Positions 2,484 to 18,784 of a stretch of DNA of 53,079 nt are shown piece by piece. The DNA comes from Glutamicibacter nicotianae (lineage in GTDB: Bacteria > Actinomycetota > Actinomycetes > Actinomycetales > Micrococcaceae). Position numbers and translations under genes: made by a program. The notes under the pieces were generated by a model, which saw only the letters and a program-made list of their open reading frames with translations, was not told the DNA's origin and did no database searches. The DNA lies in NCBI RefSeq assembly GCF_006539525.1, contig NZ_BJNE01000017.1:1-53079 (forward strand). Direction: 5' to 3'. Each line of letters opens with the position of its first letter. Within the stretch, counting starts at the first letter, position 1.

Positions 2484-3062
2484 GTGGCCAAGGCCTTCAA
2501 GAACGGTTCCAAGGGCATTACCGGCACGCTGCATTCGGCCGAACGCAAGCTGATCCGCGAACTCTTCTCCGATCTCATCGAAATGCTCGAAGAACGTGCC
2601 CGGCTGCACCAGCTGCCCGAGGACATAGACCCGCTCTACGCCCTGACCGGCATGCGGCCCGAGTCCATGGACTTGCCTCCGATTGCCGATCCGGCACTGG
2701 CCAGGCTGCTGCCCGATGCCAGCGACGACGCCGTGGCGGCCGCGGAGCATCGCCGGCTGACCGAAGCCGATTCGATCGCGCAGAAGGTTGGCCGCCTGCG
2801 CGAAGCCCAGCTGCTGCTGGAAACCGACAGGCTCGTGCTGGACAAGGACGCCGCGACGCGTTTCGCCCAGGCGCTGAACGATGTGCGCCTGGTGCTCGCC
2901 GAACGCCTTCAGATCCGCAGCGAAGAGGATTCGGCCCGGGTCGCCGAGGTGCTTGATGCTTCCGAGGTGGAAACCCCCGAGGAGTACATGTCCCTGGTGT
3001 ACAACCTGATCTCGTGGGTGCTCGATACATTGATGGGCGCGCTGATGGATGCGGAGTCCTGA
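2484..3062 (+). CDS. DUF2017 family protein
   Basis: A 192-aa, mostly helical acidic protein of unknown function that follows clpS in many actinobacteria; the translationally tight coupling (GTG start 2 bases after the clpS stop) suggests a role connected with Clp proteolysis, which is inference. It contains no enzymatic motif that can be recognised, no signal peptide and no membrane segment. The segment around residues 20-40 ([17 protein letters not shown]) and the C-terminal [17 protein letters not shown] are typical of the family. Confidence 0.8.
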
Positions 3063-3066
3063 GCCC

Positions 3067-3990
3067 ATGAATTCCTACTTTGCCACCGAGCAGGTCTCCG
3101 CCCCGGACGCCAATACCCCCATTGGGATCTTCGACTCCGGAGTTGGCGGGCTGACCGTGGCCCGCGCCATCATCGACCAGCTGCCCGGCGAATCGCTGAT
3201 CTATGTAGGGGATACCGCCAACTCTCCCTACGGTCCGCTGCCCATCGCCCAGGTGCGGGCCAACGCCCTGGGCGTGATGGACGAACTGGTCGATTCCGGC
3301 GTGAAGCTGCTGGTCATTGCCTGCAATTCGGCCTCCGCCGCGGTGCTGCGCGATGCCCGCGAACGCTACACCGCGCGCTATGGCATCCCGGTAGTCGAAG
3401 TCATCCAGCCGGCGGTCCGCCGTGCCGTGGCCGGCACCAAGAATGGCAGGATCGGCATCATCGGCACCCAGGCGACCGTGGGCTCGCGCGCCTATGAGGA
3501 TGCTTTTGCCGCTGCCCCGAACCTGCAGGTATCGACCGTGGCCTGCCCGCGTTTCGTGGAGTTCGTGGAATCCGGCATCACCGCCGGAGCCGAGCTGCTG
3601 GAGATCGCGCAGGAATACCTGTCGCCGCTGCAGGCCGCCGAGGTGGACACCCTGGTGCTGGGATGCACGCACTACCCGCTGCTCACCGGCGTCCTCTCCT
3701 ACGTGATGGGGGATTCGGTCACCCTGGTGTCATCTGCAGAGGAAACGGCGAAGGACGTTTTCCGGGCGTTGACCCGCCATTCGCTGGTGCGCAACGACGG
3801 CGCCGCGGCGCGTCATGAGTTCCTCGCCACAGGCAACGCTGATAGTTTTGGTGTACTGGCTCGCCGTTTCCTCGGACCCGAGGTGCTGCAGGTGCGCCAC
3901 GTGGACCATGTAGCCGCCCACTATCCGACCGGAGCCATCTCGCGGATTACTCCGCAAATGATTGCCGCGTCGAAAGCGAGTAACGAATGA
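3067..3990 (+). CDS. murI: Glutamate racemase
   Basis: Interconverts L- and D-glutamate, providing D-Glu for peptidoglycan. The 307-aa protein has the family opening [12 protein letters not shown] with catalytic-site D23-S24, the first catalytic cysteine C86 in ACNSASA and the second, C200, in LGCTHYPLL, plus the substrate-loop motif GDTANSPYG. An ATG at 3049 overlaps the DUF2017 gene, but GGAG lies about 10 bases before the ATG at 3067, which is therefore preferred. Part of the clpS-DUF2017-murI-hydrolase transcription unit; its last codons overlap the next gene by 4 bases. Confidence 0.95.
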
Positions 3991-4928
3991 AGCTGACCAT
4001 CATCGGATGCACCGGGTCATTCCCAGGGCCGGGATCGCCCGCGTCCTGCTACCTGGTGACGGCCTTTGATGGCACCCGCGACTGGAAGATCCTGCTGGAT
4101 CTGGGGTCCGGGGCTTTGGGCGTGCTGCAGCGCTACACCGATTTGAAAGACATCGACGGGATCATGATTTCCCATCTGCATCCCGACCACTGCATGGATT
4201 TGTGCGGTTTGCATGTGGCGATCCGCTGGGATCCTGACGGCTGGGGCCGCGAGAGGATGCTCGTGCACGGCCCGGAAGACACCGCCGAGCGCATCGAGAC
4301 TGCCTACTCGCTGCCTGACGGCGACACCATGGCCAAGGACTACGACTTCCAGGTCTGGAAATCGCTGAAGCCGGTGAATATCGGGCCGTTCACCATCACC
4401 CCGTACCCGGTGCGCCACCCGATCAAGGAAGCCTATGCCCTGCGCGTGGAAGCGCATGAACCGGGCCCCGACGGCGAGCTGCTGACCAGCGTGCTGACCT
4501 ATTCCGGGGATACCGACAGCTGCGATGGCCTCGTGGAAGCCGCCCGCGGCGCCGACATGTTCCTGTGCGAAGCGGCCTTCGAGGAAGGCCGCGATGACCA
4601 TATCGACGGCGTGCACCTGACCGGGAAGCGCGCCGGCGAAATGGCCGCCGCCGCCGGCGCCGAGCGCATGCTGCTCACCCACATTCCGGTATGGACCGAC
4701 ATCAACAAGGTGGTTGAAGAGGCCAAGGAAACCTACAGCGGCGGCATTGCTGTGGCCGTATCCGGCGTAACCTACGGCGTGTACTCCGGCAGCCTGAAGG
4801 AAGACAAGGACCCGGCCCTGTTCAAGGGGGATCGCGGTACCGACTACCTGAAGACCCGTACCGGCTCCATGCCGACCATCAAGTACGAGAAGATCCGCAA
4901 GTTCCCGCTGCTCAAGCGCAAGAAGTAG
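3987..4928 (+). CDS. Metallo-beta-lactamase-fold hydrolase, Rv1339-like cyclic-nucleotide phosphodiesterase
   Basis: A 313-aa cytoplasmic metallohydrolase starting inside the murI stop (ATGA overlap). The zinc motif H63-L-H65-P-D67-H68 is intact, with further ligand candidates in VRHP and LTYSGDTD and a final LLTHIP histidine. In Mycobacterium tuberculosis the protein at the same position after murI (Rv1339) has been described as an atypical cAMP phosphodiesterase. By position and fold this is the probable orthologue, but substrate cannot be read from sequence. In mycobacteria rph follows directly; here rph is about 12.5 kb away. Confidence 0.82.
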
Positions 4929-5105: not shown

Positions 5106-5906
5106 TCAGGCCTGAGTGGCGGGCACCGAGCTGCTGCGGTAGGCGACCAGACCGCCATCGACGCGCACATCGGTACCGTTAACCCATATCGGCTGGCTGG
5201 AGAGCAGGTAGGCGATGACCTCGGCAATGTCCTCGGGGGCGGCAAAGCGGCCAAGCAGTTCAGCGGCGGAATTGACCTTATCCTGGCCGTGGTCCTTCTT
5301 GAAGTCATCCAGGATCGGAGTCTGCACCGGGCCGGGGCTGACCGAGTTCACCCGCACCCGAGCGCCGACAAACTCGGCGGCCAACTGTTCGGTCAGCAAT
5401 CGTACGCACTGCTTGGAGAACAGGTAGCTATTCTCCGCAATGGCGGTATCGGCCGCGGCCTGCTCCAGCGCCTGGTCCTGGTCCTCGGCCAGCGCGAAGT
5501 CGCGGCAGGCCTCGGCCACACTGCGCCAGCCAAAGGCCACCGAGGAAGCCAGATTCACCACGGAGGCGCGTTCGCCCAGCAGCGGGGCCAGGCCTCGGGT
5601 CAGTTCACGCACGGCAAAGACATTGACCGACAGCACGGTGCGCAGCGGCGCGGTGCCTGGTACCCCGGCAATATTTGCCAGGCCAGCCAAGCCCTGCGGG
5701 GCCAGTGTGGTCAGTTTCTCGATGACTGCCGAAATGCCGGCAGGGGTGGACAAGTCAGCTTGGATGAAGTCACCCGCGAAGCCAGTGGTCGCGGTGCGGT
5801 CGATGCCGATGACTGTGTAGCCGCGGGAGGCCAGTAGCGCCGCGGTGGCCGCGCCAATGCCCGAGGCGCATCCGGTCAAGGCAATGGGCAGTGAAGATGC
5901 TGACAT
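5106..5906 (-). CDS. Short-chain dehydrogenase/reductase of the aromatic-catabolic island
   Basis: A 266-aa NAD(P)-dependent alcohol/ketone dehydrogenase. The glycine-rich cofactor motif TGCASGIG is at residues 11-18, NIAG at 78-81, the catalytic serine in NLASS (about 121), and the Y161-LFS-K165 catalytic pair. D36 at the end of the second beta strand (VIGID) suggests NAD(H) preference. The length and the PGPVQTPIL segment are typical of classical SDRs such as 3-alpha-hydroxysteroid dehydrogenase/carbonyl reductases. It is divergent from the aldehyde dehydrogenase with an island operator between them, so a role as the benzylic or terpene alcohol dehydrogenase of the same pathway is likely but inferred. 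Confidence 0.85.
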   Translation of the reverse strand: MSASSLPIALTGCASGIGAATAALLASRGYTVIGIDRTATTGFAGDFIQADLSTPAGISAVIEKLTTLAPQGLAGLANIAGVPGTAPLRTVLSVNVFAVRELTRGLAPLLGERASVVNLASSVAFGWRSVAEACRDFALAEDQDQALEQAAADTAIAENSYLFSKQCVRLLTEQLAAEFVGARVRVNSVSPGPVQTPILDDFKKDHGQDKVNSAAELLGRFAAPEDIAEVIAYLLSSQPIWVNGTDVRVDGGLVAYRSSSVPATQA

Positions 5907-5999
5907 GGGGTTCTCCTAGGATGTAGGGGGCCACCGGGCGTCGCCGGGCCGTGCTTGATAGTTAATCCTGCGTCATTGTCCAGGTGGTACACGACACAC

Positions 6000-6016
6000 T
6001 TTCCATCCAATGGAAT
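6000..6016. promoter_or_regulatory. Island operator copy A (IclR-type palindrome)
   Basis: TTTCCATCCAATGGAAT: 7-base arms around CCA, one outer mismatch. Located between the divergent SDR and aldehyde dehydrogenase genes. Nearly identical palindromes occur at 13608-13624 and 14529-14545, always in upstream regions of island genes. Confidence 0.6.
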
Positions 6017-6088
6017 CAGATCCGGTGTCGGGGCTGGACACCGGGCAAGCTGACATTAGCTAAGATTTCCCGTGAAGAGAGGGTGCTG

Positions 6089-7468
6089 ATGAAAGTGCCA
6101 GTCTACGATGTGCTCGACCCGGCCACCCTAGAGGTCGTTGGGCAGGCCCCGGAACACACCGAAGAAGATGTGCGCCAGAGCATTGCTACGGCCAATCTCG
6201 CCGCCGCCGGCTGGGCCGCCGACCGTGAGTCCCGTCGCTCCACGCTGCGTGAAGTGGCAGCCCGTATCCGCACCCGCGCCCCACAACTAGGCCGCATCCT
6301 GTCCCTGGAACAGGGCAAGGTGCTGAGCGAAGCAATCGGCGAATTTCAAGTGGCCGCGGACCTCTTCGAATACTACGCAAACATGGACTGGGATGAGACC
6401 GAGGCACTGCCCGAACGTGCTGGTCGCAAACTGCAGGTGCAGTACCGCCCGGTCGGGCTGGTTGGCACCATCACGCCATGGAATTTCCCGATATCACTGC
6501 TCTGCGTGAAACTGGCCCCAGCCCTGGTGGCTGGGTGCACGGTGATTGCCAAGCCTTCGGCGACCACTCCGCTGTCCACTATCGCACTGGTGGAACTGGC
6601 TAACGAGCTGCTCCCCGAAGGCGTGCTGCAGGTACGCACCAGCAGCCGCCGCACGGTTAACGTGGCGCTGGCCGAGCTGCCAGAAATCCGCAAGATTTCC
6701 TTCACTGGCTCTACCGAGGTGGGCGCAGCGGTCGCCGCCGCGGCCACGTCGAGTGTCAAGCGGGTTACCCTGGAACTGGGTGGCAATGATCCGGCCATTG
6801 TGCTGGACGACGCCGATTTGGAAGCCACCGCCCGCGGCATCGTGGGCAGTGCCTTCCGCAATGCCGGACAGGTCTGCATGGCCGTCAAGCGCGTGTACGT
6901 GCCGCGTGCAATGCAGGGGGCATTCACCGAGGTTGTGGTGGCCGAAGCGGCCAAGCTGAGCTTGGGACACGGGGTAGCCGAGGGCACCACCATGGGCCCG
7001 ATGCACACCGCCAAACAGCGCCAGAGCGTGCAGGAGATGGTCGATGCAGCGTTGAATTCCGGAGCCCGGCTGGCTGCCGGGGGAGGTACCGGTTGCGATT
7101 TGCCTGGCCACTTCATGAATCCGACGATCATCGCCAATGCGGCCGCGGGCATGGCGCTGGTTGATCAAGAACAATTTGGCAGCGCACTACCCATCATTGG
7201 ATACGACAGCGTCGATGAGGCCATGGTGCAGGCGAATTCCGGGCCCTTTGGTCTGGGCGCATCGTTGTGGACTCCGGATCTGGACCGCGCTGAAGCGCTG
7301 GCCTCGAACCTAGAGGCGGGCACGGTGTGGATTAACCAGCACACCGTGGTAGAACTCGATGCGCCCTTTGGCGGGTGGAAGGCCTCGGGCACGGGCCGCG
7401 AACGCGGCCGCTGGGGCCTAGAGGAATACCTTGAACCACGCACTATCAATGCTCGAAGCCACGGCTAA
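6089..7468 (+). CDS. NAD(P)-dependent aldehyde dehydrogenase
   Basis: Oxidises an aldehyde to the carboxylic acid. The 459-aa protein has the oxyanion-hole asparagine N132 in TPWNFP, the general base E229 in TLELGGNDP, and the catalytic cysteine C263 in NAGQVCMAVKR; FTGSTEVG and PFGGWKASGTGRE complete the family signature. The frame is open from 5984, but the ATG at 6089 has an AGAGAGG ribosome site and matches the normal N-terminus, so it is chosen. It is slightly shorter than typical (about 480 aa), the region around residues 180-200 being compact. Followed after 33 bases by the metallo-hydrolase gene, probably one operon under operator A; an aromatic aldehyde substrate is inferred. Confidence 0.9.
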   Translation: MKVPVYDVLDPATLEVVGQAPEHTEEDVRQSIATANLAAAGWAADRESRRSTLREVAARIRTRAPQLGRILSLEQGKVLSEAIGEFQVAADLFEYYANMDWDETEALPERAGRKLQVQYRPVGLVGTITPWNFPISLLCVKLAPALVAGCTVIAKPSATTPLSTIALVELANELLPEGVLQVRTSSRRTVNVALAELPEIRKISFTGSTEVGAAVAAAATSSVKRVTLELGGNDPAIVLDDADLEATARGIVGSAFRNAGQVCMAVKRVYVPRAMQGAFTEVVVAEAAKLSLGHGVAEGTTMGPMHTAKQRQSVQEMVDAALNSGARLAAGGGTGCDLPGHFMNPTIIANAAAGMALVDQEQFGSALPIIGYDSVDEAMVQANSGPFGLGASLWTPDLDRAEALASNLEAGTVWINQHTVVELDAPFGGWKASGTGRERGRWGLEEYLEPRTINARSHG

Positions 7469-7501: not shown

Positions 7502-8443
7502 ATGAACATTTCGTCGAGCACTGAGCTCATCACGCTCGGTACCGCGGCCGGACCGGCCATCCGTGGTAAAGAAAATGGGATGGCCAGCGCCGTCGTCGTC
7601 GATGGCAAGCATTATCTGGTGGACTTCGGATTGGGCTGCGTGAGGGCCGCCCACCAGGCAGGACTGCGCGGCCAGGATCTAGTCGCCGGGTTCATCACGC
7701 ACCTGCACTCCGACCACGTGGGTGAACTGCCGGCCTATCTCATGTGGAACTGGGGTGCCCCTGTGGACGGCTTCACCACACCGGTGGGCCTCTATGGTCC
7801 GGGGAAGGACCCGAACCATGTGCGTGGCCAGCAGCTGGCCGGCACCCGCGAGCTGGTGGATCATACGCTCAAAGCCTTCTCCTACGATCTGGATATCCGC
7901 GTCACGGATGAGGCACGCCCGGTGATGAACACGTTGCTGGACGTCCAGGAGATCACGCTGCCCGCAGCGGCCGAAGGTTCCGGCAACCGCCCCTTCATCA
8001 TCTACGAAGATGACCGGGTGACCGTGCGCGCGGTTCTGGTGGAGCACCCACCGGTATTCCCGGCTTTCGCCTTCCGCTTTGATACGGCCCACGGGTCGAT
8101 GACCTTCTCCGGGGATACAGCAGAATGCGATGCGCTCATTGAGCTGGCACGCGGCAGCGACATTTTGGTGCATGAGGCAGTGAATCTGGAATTCTTTACC
8201 GCCATGGGCTTCAGCCCTACCTTCATCAACCACCAGCGGGAGTCGCACACTCCGCCGGAAGGTGCCGGCCGAGTGGCGCAGGCTGCCGGGGTGAAGCATT
8301 TGGTGCTCTCGCATCTGGCCGGGGTAGCAACCCCGGAAGAATGGAAGCAACGTGCCGAAACCAGCTTCGCCGGTCAGGTCACCGTGGCGAGCAGTGGCCA
8401 GCGTTTTGCGCTCAACACATTGGCAGCGGACGTCGTCGGCTAG
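7502..8443 (+). CDS. Metallo-beta-lactamase-fold hydrolase of the island
   Basis: A 313-aa zinc hydrolase of the RNase Z/arylsulfatase-like branch: H67-L-H69-S-D71-H72 (THLHSDHVGELP), SGDTAECDAL for the bridging aspartate, and a C-terminal LSHL histidine. No signal peptide. Ribosome site AAGGA lies before the ATG. It follows the aldehyde dehydrogenase by 33 bases, so it should act in the same catabolic process. Possible jobs are hydrolysis of an aromatic ester or lactone that feeds the pathway, or of a thiol ester of formaldehyde released by demethylation. None can be decided from sequence. It is not a close copy of the other metallo-hydrolase at 3987. Confidence 0.8.
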   Translation: MNISSSTELITLGTAAGPAIRGKENGMASAVVVDGKHYLVDFGLGCVRAAHQAGLRGQDLVAGFITHLHSDHVGELPAYLMWNWGAPVDGFTTPVGLYGPGKDPNHVRGQQLAGTRELVDHTLKAFSYDLDIRVTDEARPVMNTLLDVQEITLPAAAEGSGNRPFIIYEDDRVTVRAVLVEHPPVFPAFAFRFDTAHGSMTFSGDTAECDALIELARGSDILVHEAVNLEFFTAMGFSPTFINHQRESHTPPEGAGRVAQAAGVKHLVLSHLAGVATPEEWKQRAETSFAGQVTVASSGQRFALNTLAADVVG

Positions 8444-11315: not shown

Positions 11316-12515
11316 TTAGCGTGCCGGAGTAATAGTTACCGGAAGCGATTCGAAACCGCGCAACACATTGTGGATGATCGGTACGGCCGGGCCGGCAGGG
11401 GCGATGGTTTCCACCCGTTCCAGCAGTGCTTGGAGCACGATTTCCATTTCCAGGCGGGCAATGGGTTGGCCCACGCACTGGTGCAGCCCCATACCAAAGG
11501 CCACGTGGCCAGAGGAGGAGCGATCGAAACTGAACTTATCGGCGTCCGGTCCCCACTTCTGCGGGTCGCGGTTGGCTGCACCGAGGAAGACCAGCACCTT
11601 GGTACCGGCTGGCAGGTGCACCCCGCCCAGTTCGGTATCCACCGAGACGGTGCGGTGGAACTTCTGGAAGGGTGATTCCAAACGCAGGGCCTCATCGATG
11701 GCGAACTTGGCCAGGTTTGGTTGGCGGCGTAGTTCGGCCCAGGCTTCGGGTTCCTTGGCGAGTACCGAGAGGGTGTTGCCAATGCCGAAGATGGTGGTGT
11801 CCACTCCGGCCGATAGCAAGGCGCGCACCAGCAAGGTGGCTTGCTGCTCGGTGATCAGCCCGTCGGCAACGCGGTCCCAGATCTGTTTGCCAAAGCCTGT
11901 GTCGTTCAGCGATTCGCGCTCGCAGGCAGCCATGACCACCTTGGAGTGCACATCGGCTTCGGCGAAGGCCTGTTGGAAAATGTAGTTCTCCGGGCCGAAG
12001 GCGTTGAAGACCATGTTCCCATAGGGCAGCAGATGCTCGCGCCCTTCCTCTGGGATGCCTACCGCGTCGGGGAAGACCCTAATCGGATACTTTTCAGCTA
12101 GGTCGGTGACCGCGTCGAAGCCACTGCGGGTAGCCAGTTCATCGGTCAGTTCTAGAGCTGGGGGAGTGAAGGGGCCGCGCAGCGCGCGCACGGTGCCCGG
12201 GTTGATGACCCCGGTCAGCGCGCGGCGCATGAGGGTGTGGATCGGCGGGTCGGATTCCAGGATGCTTGGTGGACGCCAGGCTTCATCCTTGCGGATATCC
12301 CGGGGACCCAGGCCGCCGGCGGAGGAGTAGGTTTCGAAGTCAGTGAGGACCTCGTAGACCTGCTCGTATCCGGTGACGGCGTAGCTGCCGGTGGCTTCCA
12401 GATAGCTTACCGGGCCGGCCTCGCGTAGTCGATCAAGAAACGGGTAGGGGTCGGAGATGGCGGCAACGTCGAAGGGGTCTTCCTGGAAGACCATAGGTTG
12501 AGTGCGCAAAGACAT
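11316..12515 (-). CDS. Cytochrome P450, CYP199-like (para-substituted benzoate monooxygenase)
   Basis: A 399-aa soluble bacterial P450. Heme ligand C347 in FGMGLHQCVG, I-helix acid/alcohol pair in AGVDTT (236-241), ExxR as E275-ALR. The chain resembles CYP199A enzymes (recalled sequence) over its full length: AWRPPSILESDPP, VFNAFGPEN, LLVRALLSAGVDTT, LRGFESLP. CYP199A members O-demethylate or hydroxylate 4-methoxy-, 4-alkyl- and related benzoates. The ATG at 12515 has an AAGGA site and lies 11 bases after the reductase stop; an upstream ATG at 12554 lies inside the reductase gene. Operon with the reductase upstream implies that this is its electron donor. Substrate is inferred from family and neighbours. 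Confidence 0.9.
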   Translation of the reverse strand: MSLRTQPMVFQEDPFDVAAISDPYPFLDRLREAGPVSYLEATGSYAVTGYEQVYEVLTDFETYSSAGGLGPRDIRKDEAWRPPSILESDPPIHTLMRRALTGVINPGTVRALRGPFTPPALELTDELATRSGFDAVTDLAEKYPIRVFPDAVGIPEEGREHLLPYGNMVFNAFGPENYIFQQAFAEADVHSKVVMAACERESLNDTGFGKQIWDRVADGLITEQQATLLVRALLSAGVDTTIFGIGNTLSVLAKEPEAWAELRRQPNLAKFAIDEALRLESPFQKFHRTVSVDTELGGVHLPAGTKVLVFLGAANRDPQKWGPDADKFSFDRSSSGHVAFGMGLHQCVGQPIARLEMEIVLQALLERVETIAPAGPAVPIIHNVLRGFESLPVTITPAR

Positions 12516-12526
12516 GGTGGGCTTCC

Positions 12527-13507
12527 TTAGAGTTCGAGGACGAGTTTGGAACAACCGGCAGCGGCGCGGGATACGCAGACCATCATGACCTCGTTAGCGT
12601 CCTTATCGGCCTGGGAAAGGGCGGCGTCGCGATGTTCGGGCTCGCCAGAGATGATGCGGGTTTCGCAGGTGCCGCAGAGTCCGGCCCGGCAGCTGGATAG
12701 GACTCGGGCGCCGACCTGTTCGACGGCTTCGAGGATGGTCTGGTCGGACTCCACGGTGAGCGTGGTGCCGGTGAGGGACAGTTCCACCTCGAATGGTTCG
12801 GAGCTGCCGCCCACGCCGAGGCTGTCGGCGGCGAAGCGTTCGGTGTGCAGGGCACCCGGAGGCCAGCCCATGCAGAAGTCTTCCACTGCACCGAGCATGC
12901 CGCCTGGGCCGCAGGCGTAGACCAGCATATGGGCGCGGGGCAGACCCAGGATCTGGCTCAAATCCAGACGACCCGATTCATCCTCGGCCACAATGCGAAC
13001 CTTGTTGTTGCCGAATTCGGCTTCAAGTGCTTGGGCGAACGCCATGGTGTTGCGGGATCGGCCACCGTAGTAGAGTACCCATTCGCGGCCTGCGGCCTCG
13101 GCAGCGCGCATCATCGGGATGATCGGGGTGATGCCAATGCCGCCGGCAAGAAAGAGGTACTTGCGCGAATCAATAAGCGGAAAGTTATTGCGTGGTGCGG
13201 AGATGCGCAGTTCGGAACCGGCGCTCAGGCGATCGTGCACCCAAGCGGAGCCGCCACGGGAATCCGGGGTGCGCAGTACGCCAATGCGCAGGGTGGACAG
13301 GTCCTCGGTGTCCGAGCACAGCGAATATTGCCGGGTGAGATCGTCGGTGAGGTGCACGTCGATGTGCGAGCCTGGGGCCCAGCTGGGGAAGTTCTGCCCA
13401 TCGGCGCGACGCAGCACCAAGGAGGCGACGCCGTCCGCGGGATACTCTACGGCGTCGATCACCGTATTGATGATGGCCGGTGCCTGAATGGGCGCAGTGA
13501 TAGTCAT
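12527..13507 (-). CDS. FMN/2Fe-2S reductase of the phthalate dioxygenase reductase (VanB) type, P450 partner
   Basis: A 326-aa NADH-dependent electron-transfer protein. Domains in order: flavin domain with R59-Q-Y61-S62-L63 (the FMN-binding RxYSL motif), nucleotide-binding domain with GGIGITP (122-128) and CGPGGML (199-205), and a C-terminal plant-type [2Fe-2S] domain with C273, C278, C281 and C311. This layout is that of VanB and phthalate dioxygenase reductase, which normally serve Rieske oxygenases; none is present here. The gene instead precedes a P450 by 11 bases, so it should feed the P450 directly without a separate ferredoxin. Start ATG at 13507 has AGGAGCGG. Island operator B lies 101 bases upstream. 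Confidence 0.92.
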   Translation of the reverse strand: MTITAPIQAPAIINTVIDAVEYPADGVASLVLRRADGQNFPSWAPGSHIDVHLTDDLTRQYSLCSDTEDLSTLRIGVLRTPDSRGGSAWVHDRLSAGSELRISAPRNNFPLIDSRKYLFLAGGIGITPIIPMMRAAEAAGREWVLYYGGRSRNTMAFAQALEAEFGNNKVRIVAEDESGRLDLSQILGLPRAHMLVYACGPGGMLGAVEDFCMGWPPGALHTERFAADSLGVGGSSEPFEVELSLTGTTLTVESDQTILEAVEQVGARVLSSCRAGLCGTCETRIISGEPEHRDAALSQADKDANEVMMVCVSRAAAGCSKLVLEL

Positions 13508-13652: not shown

Positions 13653-14451
13653 TTAGCTCTCGGTGGACATGCTTAGGCGGCGGGCAATACTGCGTGCCGC
13701 GATACGCAAGACGGGCACCACCGCACCCACGGAGGCCGGACGCTCCAGAGTCACAACTCCCAGTGCCGCGAGGCAGCGGCCATTGAGCGAAATCACCGGC
13801 ACTGCGACCCCATAGTTCTGTGCGCCTGCCTCTTGGCTGGTAGTGGCGTAGCCATCTTCGCGAACCTTGGCGATTTCGCGGCGCAGCTGCTGGGGGGCCG
13901 TGATGGTGTGCTCGGTCAGTTGGGTGAGGCTGGCCATGCCTGCCTCTAATACATCAGATTCGCCAAATGCCATCATGACCTTGCCCGCGGCCGAGGCGTG
14001 GAGAGGGAGGTGTTCACCGACGCGCCGGAATGGGGGCTCCCACCCGGGTGCCCGACATGCGTTCGAGAAGCAAAACCTGATCGTTGTCCAATATGAACAG
14101 GTTCACGACGTTCTGGGTCACGAATAGAACATCTTGCATATAGGGCGCGGCCAATTCGGCGAAGCCTTGGTGGGCAGGTGCCAGCAGTCCCAGTTGCCAG
14201 ATCCGGTGGCCAATGAGGTAATCCTGGCCGGAGCGCTGCAGCGCACCCCAACTGACTAATTCGCCGGTGAGACGGTGTGCAGTGGCCACCGGCAGGCCGG
14301 CCCGAGAGGCCATGTCGCTCAGGGTGAGTCGCGGGTGTTCGGAGTCAAAAGTGCCTAAGAGTGCGAGAGCGCGCGAAGTTACCGACTGTCCTGTTGGGGC
14401 GCTGGTGGTGCTGTCACGTTTGAGCCGTGGTTTCGGATTGGCGATGGGAAT
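13653..14451 (-). pseudogene. IclR-family regulator of the island, frameshifted
   Basis: Two frames together make a complete IclR protein. The N-terminal part (winged HTH with TLSDMASRAGLPVATAHRL, then the effector domain to LLERMSGTRVGAP) is open from 14478 down to 14014. The C-terminal part (from GEHLPLHASAAGK to RRLSMSTES) is in another frame down to 13653. Removing one base from the five-base C run (plus-strand G run 14032-14036) restores GTRVGAPFRRVGEHLPLHAS. No in-frame ATG, GTG or TTG precedes the HTH: the stop at 14479-14481 is followed only by an ATT at 14451 with GGAG before it. The ATG at 14313 would remove part of the HTH. Thus probably inactive, unless the run is a sequencing error and a rare start is used. 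Confidence 0.82.
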
Positions 14452-14581: not shown

Positions 14582-15936
14582 GTGATTAGCATTAACCCAC
14601 CTTCCGGCGTTTGGCGCCGTGCTCAGAAAGCCCTATTGCATATGTCTTGTCCTGTTCCACGTCCCACAGTCGTCGCCGGCGCGGTCGAAGCGACCGAAGC
14701 GCATGCACCGCACGCTCAGGGACGCGGTCCAGGGGTGGCGGCGGGGCGCTGGATGATCGTGGTCGGTGTGGGAGTAGTTGCAGCGATGAACATCTGGAAA
14801 CTGCCGTTGGCGCTGCAACGATTGGAAGCCGAACTGGGCTTTGGGTTGGTGTTCTCCGGACTTCTCTTGGGGGTTATCCAGGTGGCGAGCATGCTCGGTG
14901 GCTTGCTGGTTGCCTGGGGTGGGGAGCGTTTCGGCTTGCGCCGGTTGCTGATGCTCGGATTGATTTTGCTGGCGCTTGGCTCGGCTGGTGGTGCGGTGTC
15001 ACCGAACCCCGGATTATTGCTTGGCACGCGCATGGTCGAAGGCATCGGGTTTCTGCTGTGCACGGTGCTGGCCCCGGCCTTGATCCGTGTGATTTGCCGC
15101 CCGGCCGATCTTGATCGGGCCATGGGTGCTTGGGGGTCCTTCCAGGGCATCGCGATCATGCTCTCCTTCAGCGGCGGGATCTTGGCCTTGCAGGTGCTGC
15201 AGTGGCGTGCTTTGTGGCTGCTGATGGCGCTGCTGGCCGTCGGTATGCTGTGGCCATTGGCTCGGTGGGTGCCGGCCGGCCCGGTGGAGCGGGGCATTGA
15301 CGGGCGCGGTTCCTTGCGCAAAATTCTGCTGACCATCAAGGTATTGCCGCCGTGGATGGCAGGACTGGCCTTTGCCTGTTACACAGTGCAGTGGATGGCC
15401 GTGATGGGCTTTTTGCCGCGCATTTATGCCGCCATGGATTGGAAGCACTGCCGGCAGGGTTGCTCTCGGCGCTTGTGGGTGGCCTCAACATTATCGGTGC
15501 CTGGATCTCGGCGGCCTGGTTGCAGCGCGGACGCGGCGCCACCGGAATCCTGCTTTTGTGCTTTGCGGTCATGGCCGTTTCTTCGGTGGGGCTCTTCGCC
15601 GTGCCGTGGATGCAGCTGCCGCGCGGGATCGTCGGGGCGCTGGCTTGCGCCTCGGTGTTCTCGCTCATTGGCGGGATCGCACCGGCCGCACTGAGCAGGG
15701 TGGCCGTGGATCTGGCACCGCCTGGCGGGGCGGTGAGCGCAGTGATTGGGCTGATGCAGCAGCTGTTTAATGTGGGCAACTTCCTCGGCCCTTTCCTGCT
15801 GGCCTGGATTGCGGTGCAGGTCGGCGGTTGGCAGGCTTCCTGGGTGATGACCTGCGGCTTCTGTGCCCTCGGGATGAGCGCGACGCTGGCGTTACACGTG
15901 CGCACGCGATCAGTGAATCCCTCAGTGGTTCGCTAG
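14582..15936 (+). pseudogene. MFS transporter (CynX/NimT-like), frameshifted
   Basis: A second carrier of the island, split over two frames. Frame one runs from about 14582 through eight or so membrane segments to GFLPRIYAAMDW; frame two continues with EALPAGLLSALVGGLNIIGAW to 15936. Adding one G to the GG at 15441-15442 joins them as AAMDWEALPAGLL, giving about 451 aa, the normal size for a 12-segment MFS carrier. The GTG at 14582 has GGGAAAG upstream; an ATG at 14642 is an alternative start. Divergent from the IclR gene and preceded by operator C. As read it would yield a truncated, non-functional carrier; the lesion in a short homopolymer could also be a sequencing error. Confidence 0.8.
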
Positions 15937-17420: not shown

Positions 17421-18155
17421 ATGACTTTACGCGCTGACGGCCGAGGAGCCGCGCAACTTCGAGACATCACCATCACCCGCGGCTGGTCCGCTCAGGCCGA
17501 AGGCTCGGCCCTGATCGAATTCGGCAACACCCGCGTGCTGTGCACCGCTTCCTTCACCGAGGGTGTGCCGCGCTGGCTCAAGGGCGAAGGCACCGGCTGG
17601 GTCACCGCTGAATACGCGATGCTCCCGCGTGCCACCAACACCCGCAACTCCCGTGAATCGGTCAAGGGCAAGCTCTCCGGCCGCACCCACGAAATCTCCC
17701 GCCTGATCGGCCGCTCCCTGCGTGCCGTGGTGGATACCAAGGCGCTGGGCGAAAACACCATCGTGCTGGACTGCGATGTCCTGCAGGCCGACGGCGGCAC
17801 CCGCACCGCAGCGATCACCGGCGCCTACGTGGCGCTGGCGGAAGCAATCTCCTGGGCCCGTTCGCAGGGCATCGTGAAGCCCGGCGCCAAGGTGCTGACC
17901 GACTCGGTGGCAGCAATCTCGGTGGGCATCATCGACGGCATCCCGATGCTGGATCTGCCCTACGAGGAAGATGTCCGCGCCGAGACCGACATGAACGTCG
18001 TGGTCACCGGATCCGGCGACTTCGTCGAGGTCCAGGGCACCGCCGAGGGCGTGCCCTTCAAGCGCGAAGAACTGGACGCCCTGCTGGATCTGGCTCTGGG
18101 CGGCACCAACGAGCTGGCCGAAATCCAGCGCGAGACCCTGAACAGCACCAAATGA
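17421..18155 (+). CDS. rph: Ribonuclease PH
   Basis: A phosphate-dependent 3'-5' exoribonuclease that trims tRNA 3' ends. The 244-aa protein is full length and highly conserved: MTLRADGR start, the phosphate-site segment [42 protein letters not shown], and [17 protein letters not shown]. It is coupled to the next gene by a 4-base ATGA overlap. In mycobacteria rph follows murI and the Rv1339 gene; here the pair rph-rdgB is separated from those by the catabolic island and the DoxX/regulator pair. Confidence 0.96.
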
Positions 18156-18784
18156 GCAAGCCGGTACTTGTCCTCGCCTCGCGCAACCAGGGCAAGCTGC
18201 GCGAATTGCGCGAACTGCTGCGCGGAAAGGTGCCGGGCCTGGACGTCGATACGCAGGTCATCGACGCCGCCACCGCGGGAGCTCCCGATCCTGTCGAAGA
18301 CCAGGTCAGCTTCGCCGGCAACGCGCTGAAGAAGGCCCGCGAGATCTCGGCATCCACCGGACTGGTGGCGCTCGCCGATGATTCCGGCCTGAGCGTTGAT
18401 GTGCTCGGGGGAGCGCCGGGCATCTTCTCGGCCCGCTGGTCCGGAGTGCACGGCAACGACGAGGCGAATATCGATCTGCTGCTCGGCCAGCTTGGCGATA
18501 TTGCCGCCGAGCATCGCGGAGCGCAGTTCGTCTGCGCCGCGGCGCTTGCTGCCCCAGGCGGAGCCGAGCACGTGGAACTCGGCACGGTCGAGGGCGTGCT
18601 GCGCACCGAGCGGGCCGGAGAGCATGGCTTCGGCTATGATCCGATCTTCGAACCTGCGGGGGCCGGCAAGTCCATGGCCGAGCACACTCCGGAGGAAAAG
18701 AACGCGATCTCGCATCGCGCTCGCGCCTTCGCCGCCTTGCTGCCTAGCATCATCGACGAGGTGACCAAGGCCCTGGCCAAGTAG
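18152..18784 (+). CDS. rdgB: RdgB/HAM1 non-canonical purine NTP pyrophosphatase
   Basis: Hydrolyses ITP, dITP and XTP to monophosphates, cleaning the nucleotide pool. The 210-aa protein shows the substrate-site opening [16 protein letters not shown], the FAGNALKKA segment, the metal-binding [22 protein letters not shown] stretch (key residues D-D-S-G), and the C-terminal [10 protein letters not shown] and SHRARAF motifs. Starts within the rph stop codon and is followed by a perfect terminator. Confidence 0.95.

Follow-up and report, generated by a model that had tools for sequence, protein, structure and literature searches.

Described relatives of the gene pair

The closest described counterpart of the gene pair considered here is PbdA/PbdB of Rhodococcus jostii RHA1 (PDB 9g9q/r/s), a characterised pair in which a CYP199A cytochrome P450, PbdA, is served by PbdB, a reductase with flavin and an iron-sulphur cluster. 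Together with NADH and O2 the two proteins demethylate p-methoxybenzoate, veratrate and isovanillate (main text of PMC11530827). A comparable pair was found in Glutamicibacter nicotianae on contig NZ_BJNE01000017.1 of assembly GCF_006539525.1, of which the whole stretch analysed, 53,079 nucleotides, is called the window below. It consists of a 326 amino acid reductase of the phthalate dioxygenase reductase (PDR)/VanB type (12527..13507, minus strand) and a 399 amino acid CYP199-like P450 (11316..12515, minus strand), the latter falling, in a P450 tree, into a branch that we call IIa. Very probably the two proteins form a two-component monooxygenase in which the PDR-type reductase serves the P450, working like PbdAB within a conserved catabolic cluster. 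The kind of pair is itself known; what looks new here is branch IIa, its altered pocket and its own conserved cluster.

CYP199A2 and CYP199A4 (2fr7, 4dnz), presumably both from Rhodopseudomonas palustris, are the nearest solved P450 relatives after PbdA, at 50% and 49% identity, and receive their electrons from a ferredoxin and a reductase that are separate proteins. Amycolatopsis magusensis reportedly has a 'two-component system' for 4-methoxybenzoate, according to a cited title. In CYP116B enzymes, whose C-terminal reductase part comes closest to the window reductase among solved structures, P450 and reductase form one polypeptide, whereas the window holds two separate open reading frames (ORFs) with the reductase first. 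GcoA/GcoB is likewise a two-component O-demethylase with a flavin/iron-sulphur reductase, GcoA being a P450 of another family. Residues 46-174 of the window reductase align to 133-273 of 5ogx, which we take to be GcoB, in keeping with a ferredoxin domain that stands first in that protein. In the window reductase the Fer2 domain stands last (246-315 of 326), and the preliminary description of the window was right to separate the two by domain order. The vanillate demethylase VanA/VanB has a reductase of the same family as that of the window, but its terminal oxygenase is a Rieske protein, of which the window contig contains no match.

Anatomy of the pair

The reductase ORF begins with an ATG at 13507 and its stop ends at 12527, 11 bases before the ATG of the P450 at 12515; the P450 stop lies at 11316. 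Pfam domains NAD_binding_1 (residues 119-209) and Fer2 were assigned to the reductase, along with the motifs RQYSL at 59, GGIGITP at 122 and CGP at 199 and the [2Fe-2S] cysteines Cys273/278/281/311. This order of flavin, NAD and C-terminal plant-type [2Fe-2S] parts, with the motifs, is that of the PDR/VanB family. Among solved structures the reductase best matches the C-terminal part of 6kbh (E 2.9e-72) and of 6laa (7.2e-69), two fused P450 chains that we take to be self-sufficient CYP116B enzymes, and then phthalate dioxygenase reductase itself (2pia, E 6.8e-51). ORFs, motifs and Pfam domains thus agree with the preliminary description, in which a reductase with an RxYSL motif, an NAD site and a C-terminal [2Fe-2S] domain was placed 11 bases before a CYP199-like P450. 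Its remark that neither a ferredoxin gene nor a Rieske oxygenase is nearby also stands: the contig gave no Rieske match and, apart from the reductase, no Fer2 match, in a scan that covered ferredoxins of the PF00111 type and not the 3Fe-4S/4Fe-4S types. Within that scope the locus has the gene anatomy of a PbdAB-type system, a CYP199-related P450 adjoining a PDR gene with no ferredoxin beside it.

The same description had taken the characterised CYP199A enzymes to work with a separate ferredoxin and a ferredoxin reductase, and the pair to be of a little-described kind. The first statement is contradicted by PbdA with PbdB, and the kind is already described as that of PbdAB, because PbdA is a CYP199A enzyme served by a flavin/iron-sulphur reductase (PMC11530827). 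The words VanB and phthalate are absent from the main text on PbdAB in that paper, and gene order at a PbdA homologue was therefore checked. A PbdA homologue, 96% identical over 388 residues, is encoded by Rhodococcus opacus ATCC 51881, from which locus L087 comes, and a 325-residue PDR-type reductase ends 24 bases upstream of it. On plasmids of Rhodococcus and Pseudonocardia, a gene annotated as 'PDR/VanB family oxidoreductase' accompanies that of a P450, once with a tautomerase gene between the two. The window P450 is 48% identical to PbdA, and the window reductase 49% identical to the R. opacus reductase, which stands in for PbdB in this comparison; the window branch has Ser237, Val288 and Thr290 changed, has lost a residue beside Leu90 and has other neighbouring genes.

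Conservation of the pair across genomes

Within the family, the P450 has a match with an E value of at most 1e-60 in 51 of 197 genomes, and the reductase adjoins the P450 in 29 of the 30 family loci that were fetched, the window's own included. The exception is L033, in which the P450 is 49% identical and no reductase lies within 1.5 kb. For a wider comparison the best 80 of 510 confirmed P450 matches were used, to which five plasmid loci (L047-L051) were added by hand, and the resulting 85 loci fall into 28 IIa, 39 group I and 18 IIb loci, sizes that are not to be read as frequencies. Locus counts were taken from tblastn, since the gene caller overlooked some P450 and PDR genes, and reductase matches shorter than 250 amino acids (L108, L113 and L116) were excluded from the PDR counts.

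All 28 IIa loci (P450 identity at least 59%) carry the reductase directly upstream of the P450 on the same strand. They were found in Glutamicibacter, Arthrobacter, Zafaria, Yaniella, Pseudoglutamicibacter, Pseudarthrobacter and Paeniglutamicibacter, as well as in Kocuria, Micrococcus, Citricoccus, Tersicoccus, Sinomonas, Streptomyces and Blastococcus. Because the pair is kept in 28 of 28 IIa loci and 29 of 30 family loci, the adjacency of P450 and reductase is not due to chance. The search for the same adjacent pair in other genomes, proposed in the preliminary description, thus finds it widely, and the two-component unit without a neighbouring ferredoxin gene is conserved across the IIa loci.

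The two proteins also diverge together. Over 29 IIa pairs, P450 and reductase similarities are correlated with an r of 0.90, a value that still includes species kinship and was reached by none of 2000 permutations. IIa reductases form one group in the reductase tree (support 100) and IIa P450s do likewise in their own tree (99), both trees being quick IQ-TREE runs with SH-aLRT support only. The flavin motif is not invariant, reading RQYSV or RQYSI in 4 of the 29 IIa reductase rows.

The P450 branch and its pocket

The top solved relative of the window P450 is 9g9q (PbdA, E 1.1e-114), followed by 2fr7, presumably CYP199A2, and CYP199A4 chains. The P450 signatures EALR and AGVDTT are kept, as is the heme-loop Cys347, and the nearest match in a named record is that of Glutamicibacter ardleyensis (84%). 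By naming convention P450s of one family share more than 40% identity and those of one subfamily more than 55%; the window protein is above the first value for CYP199 and, with 48-50% to the three members compared, below the second for CYP199A. Members of CYP199A may share as little as 51% identity, and Arg84, Ser87 and Ser237 (PbdA numbering) are carboxylate-binding residues described as 'conserved in the CYP199A family' (main text of PMC11530827). Two of these are kept in the window P450, Arg84 as R81 and Ser87 as S84, while Ser237 is replaced by Ala. Because of the 48-50% identity and the missing Ser237, the protein was not filed under CYP199A; by sequence it is a sister branch among the CYP199-like P450s, outside that subfamily. 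The earlier label 'CYP199-like P450' is apt as far as solved relatives go, but it overlooked the place outside CYP199A, the changed pocket and the conserved gene cluster.

The substrate contacts of PbdA are Arg84, Ser87, Ser237, Leu90, Val288 and Phe291 (PMC11530827). In addition to Ser237 to Ala, the window P450 has Val288 to Phe, Thr290 to Lys and one residue fewer beside Leu90; Phe291 and both Phe of the FNAF motif are unchanged. Counting along the printed chain from Arg84 does not bring Phe173 and Phe176 of PbdA, as numbered in the paper, onto Phe residues, and the FNAF motif was compared instead. Across the alignment, all 42 group-I rows have Ser237 and Thr290 and lack the deletion, and 41 of them have Val288, while Ala237, Phe288 and the deletion beside Leu90 hold in all 29 IIa rows (window plus 28 loci) and all 18 IIb rows. 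The groups were defined from identity and from the letters at 237 and 288, so that the split at these two sites is partly by definition; positions 87-90, position 290 and the trees are independent of how the groups were drawn. Position 290 is Lys or Met in IIa, and Ser87 has become Gly in 5 of 29 IIa rows and 18 of 18 IIb rows. The P450 tree has 75 rows, 15 of 89 (for the most part from Bradyrhizobium) having been left out; on it one change suffices for each of groups I, IIa and IIb, with support of 100, 99 and 100. Branch IIa thus offers natural pocket variants at residues that have been mutated in PbdA.

Neighbouring genes

Five further genes of the window recur around IIa pairs. An IclR-type regulator lies upstream of the pair (13659..14445, minus strand), recognised by homology to L052 and split over two frames near 14030, and an MFS transporter lies downstream of the P450 (9756..11114, minus strand; TIGR00893-like, below cut-off). 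Farther along are an MBL-fold hydrolase (7502..8443, plus strand), an aldehyde dehydrogenase (ALDH; 5984..7468, plus strand) and a short-chain dehydrogenase (SDR; 5106..5906, minus strand). Neighbours were counted with window proteins as queries (the L052 protein for IclR) at 45% identity or more over at least 130 residues, in a flank of about 6 kb that is shorter at contig ends (e.g. L061, L067 and L074). ALDH was found at 27 of 28 IIa loci, SDR at 25, MBL and IclR at 23 each and MFS at 21, and each of them at none of the 57 other loci; the reductase at the same threshold was found at 28 of 28 and 19 of 57. Below 45% identity, 20 of the 57 other loci have IclR homologues (26-43%) and three have ALDH homologues (31-36%), while MFS, MBL and SDR gave no match at these loci even below that threshold. 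The most economical reading of the cluster, judged from its predicted proteins, is an aromatic catabolic unit. No paper title on the IIa cluster was found in the literature searched, most subscription papers being outside the reach of that search.

The nearest NCBIfam model of the SDR is coniferyl-alcohol dehydrogenase, to which it scores 224 bits against a cut-off of 242; two relatives score 237 and 220. A more specific name for the MBL hydrolase was given up, the similarity to RNase Z and arylsulfatase being weak. The regulator was typed via the L052 IclR, to which it matches over two frames (72% over 140 and 64% over 128 amino acids), a relative being typed as IclR; in the near relative L151 the IclR homologue gives a single unbroken alignment. 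A divergent MFS gene at 14684-15924 is likewise split between two frames near 15440-15460, relative to its L052 homologue, and both splits are decay or assembly error. Beside the cluster of Arthrobacter sp. C2 (L063) a homoprotocatechuate pathway was considered and rejected: the LigB-family gene there fits 4,5-DOPA dioxygenase best, below cut-off, and the aldehyde dehydrogenase is unspecific, so no substrate was inferred from this locus.

The IIb loci have neighbours of a different sort. A gene for a lyase of the histidine-ammonia-lyase (HAL) kind lies beside 13 of the 18 IIb P450s (L082, L085, L086, L088, L091, L092, L093, L096, L100, L102, L103, L110 and L130), and amino-acid ABC transporter genes are near some of them. 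Five of these lyases were typed, and scored above the PRK09367 cut-off and below that of hutH. The substrate of the IIb P450s is possibly an arylacrylate or a methylated urocanate.

Proposed function

The anatomy of the genes, the strict conservation of the pair, the joint divergence of its proteins, the cluster and the altered pocket are seen in the sequences, while how electrons move, which reaction follows, on what substrate and in what order of steps is our inference. Electrons would pass from NADH to the flavin (FMN by homology), on to the C-terminal [2Fe-2S] cluster of the reductase and from there to the P450 heme, with no ferredoxin involved. The heme would then activate O2 and oxygenate a small aromatic carboxylate, by O-demethylation or hydroxylation. 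In the cluster as a whole, the SDR would convert an aryl alcohol to the aldehyde and the ALDH would probably convert the aldehyde to the acid, which the P450 and PDR would take up in turn, with the MFS transporter presumably serving uptake and the IclR regulator control. Elsewhere in the genome (contig C4, 20461-23059) a PobA-like gene, above the NCBIfam cut-off of PRK08243 and below that of TIGR02360, lies beside two Dioxygenase_C (protocatechuate-dioxygenase-like) genes. The product may enter these, and 4-hydroxybenzoate as product could suit the PobA-like gene.

Several points weigh against this interpretation. Linkage of the pair may stem partly from transfer as one cluster, all six partner genes occur together in the flank examined at only 11 of 28 IIa loci, and the IclR regulator of the window is frameshifted. 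A PobA gene was found at 1 of the 85 loci (L047), which is not IIa. PDR genes are not universal among the relatives: in the flank examined, 21 of the 39 loci of group I have none, nor do 7 of the 18 in IIb. Beyond the pair, the genome encodes another P450 (C2:121991), gives a weak match to a third (C6) and encodes a ferredoxin (C2:126530) that could also serve the window P450. With the changes in the pocket (Ser237 to Ala, Val288 to Phe, Thr290 to Lys and the loss beside Leu90), 4-methoxybenzoate cannot simply be assumed. This compound, the substrate named in the preliminary description, is kept as one candidate only, given that pocket, a P450 outside CYP199A and a gene cluster of its own.

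A special case of the PbdAB-like reading, not exclusive of it, is that the pair simply is PbdAB, an O-demethylase of 4-methoxybenzoate and veratrate whose substrate range is unchanged. We regard this as possible rather than probable. Identity of 48-50% to PbdA, CYP199A2 and CYP199A4 is consistent with it, as are the retained Arg84, Ser87, Phe291 and Phe pair of FNAF, and PbdA S237A alone has near wild-type activity on p-methoxybenzoate with binding about 8-fold weaker (PMC11530827, Table 3). However, the whole of IIa has Phe for Val288 and the loss beside Leu90, position 290 holds Lys or Met instead of Thr, 5 of the 28 IIa relatives also have Gly in place of Ser87, and the SDR, ALDH and MBL genes are absent at 45% identity from the 57 other loci. 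At a little under an even chance, IIa is an uncharacterised P450 subfamily outside CYP199A that, with its dedicated PDR and the SDR, ALDH, MBL, MFS and IclR genes, would make up an undescribed pathway for aromatic alcohols, aldehydes or esters, the acid being longer than 4-methoxybenzoate or differently substituted. On the same supposition, arylacrylate-like or other non-benzoate acids may be the substrates of both IIa and IIb, which have the pocket change in common; most IIb genes lie next to one for a HAL-like lyase. A CYP199A25 of Arthrobacter was reportedly described by Klenk et al. in 2020, and if it belongs to IIa the branch is partly characterised already.

O-demethylation limits the biological use of lignin-derived aromatics, and a P450 that depends on one partner only can be transferred from host to host more easily. 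For specialists in lignin catabolism the branch would be useful rather than astonishing.

Redox partners

The PDR family is best known from Rieske oxygenases, yet the loci compared suggest that its genes often neighbour that of a P450, and in some of these runs a VanA-like Rieske gene is present too. The window reductase could accordingly be of the VanB type and serve a Rieske oxygenase elsewhere, its place beside the P450 being incidental or shared. The family resemblance points that way, and at seven group-I loci (L048, L089, L094, L095, L097, L098 and L106) a VanA-like gene lies upstream of PDR and P450 on the same strand, where a shared reductase is plausible. We nevertheless consider this very unlikely for the window, given that the VanA query found nothing at the 28 IIa loci and that reductase and P450 diverge in step. 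The whole genome contains five Rieske matches, none on the window's contig (C17), and eight Fer2 matches, of which the reductase alone is on that contig. The sole recognised ring-hydroxylating oxygenase among the Rieske matches (C2:159929) has its own FAD/iron-sulphur reductase gene adjoining (C2:157698), a second match lies in a cytochrome bc gene set (ORF reading), and the remaining three, in frames of 108, 168 and 172 amino acids, are untyped. The refuting case named in the preliminary description, in which a Rieske oxygenase at another place in the genome relies on the window reductase, thus looks unlikely. At the seven group-I loci one reductase may be shared by a Rieske and a heme demethylase; Pfam VanA_C was confirmed in L048 and L097 only, and one small ORF lies inside the L048 run.

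Least likely, by a small step, is that electrons reach the P450 through a ferredoxin and its reductase as separate proteins, the way they do in CYP199A2 and CYP199A4, with the PDR gene a bystander: an adrenodoxin-type ferredoxin is indeed encoded at C2:126530 and a ferredoxin gene occurs at 12 of 14 CYP199A-like Bradyrhizobium loci, but the ferredoxin query (E 1e-8) found none at the 28 IIa loci, where other ferredoxin types would escape it, PDR is present at all 28, and PbdAB provides a precedent (PMC11530827). On C2, this ferredoxin gene and the gene for the genome's second P450 are about 4 kb apart (about 121991-126775).

Across the 85 loci the adrenodoxin-type query matched at 12, in each case just downstream of the P450 and all in Bradyrhizobium. 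These 12 loci are all without a PDR match, in contrast to the window, and no locus sampled has both. Among the 39 loci of group I, a co-directional PDR gene lies within 700 bases at 17 and a PDR gene farther off at one; at 11 of the 18 IIb loci the PDR is divergent or far. Nine of the PDR-less group-I loci are also without a ferredoxin match (L080, L081, L083, L084, L090, L105, L120, L122 and L128), six of them actinobacterial. The distribution suggests that CYP199-like P450s switched redox partner, between ferredoxin in Bradyrhizobium and PDR in many actinobacteria, as a trend and not a rule because of these nine loci.

On the Rhodococcus opacus plasmid NZ_CP130954.1 (L047), PDR and P450 flank a small tautomerase gene (4529-4732), and a 4-hydroxybenzoate 3-monooxygenase gene lies downstream.

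Genomic position

The cluster of the window lies between a phosphodiesterase-like gene, which ends at 4928, and rph, which starts at 17421, so that the housekeeping genes murI-phosphodiesterase (3049-4928) and rph-rdgB (17421-18784) are parted by about 12.5 kb that hold the cluster. The same four genes are contiguous in L140, L141 and L142, from the genomes of L064, L053 and L054, which have an IIa cluster of their own away from the murI-rdgB run. In Glutamicibacter ardleyensis the gap between phosphodiesterase and rph is 1.8 kb and the IIa cluster is on another contig. The near relative L151 keeps the gene order of the cluster, and the 20 kb examined there contain neither murI nor the phosphodiesterase gene nor rph. 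Together these arrangements suggest that the IIa unit moves as a block. The rph-rdgB DNA of the window is 79% identical to that of both Glutamicibacter ardleyensis and Paeniglutamicibacter psychrophenolicus.

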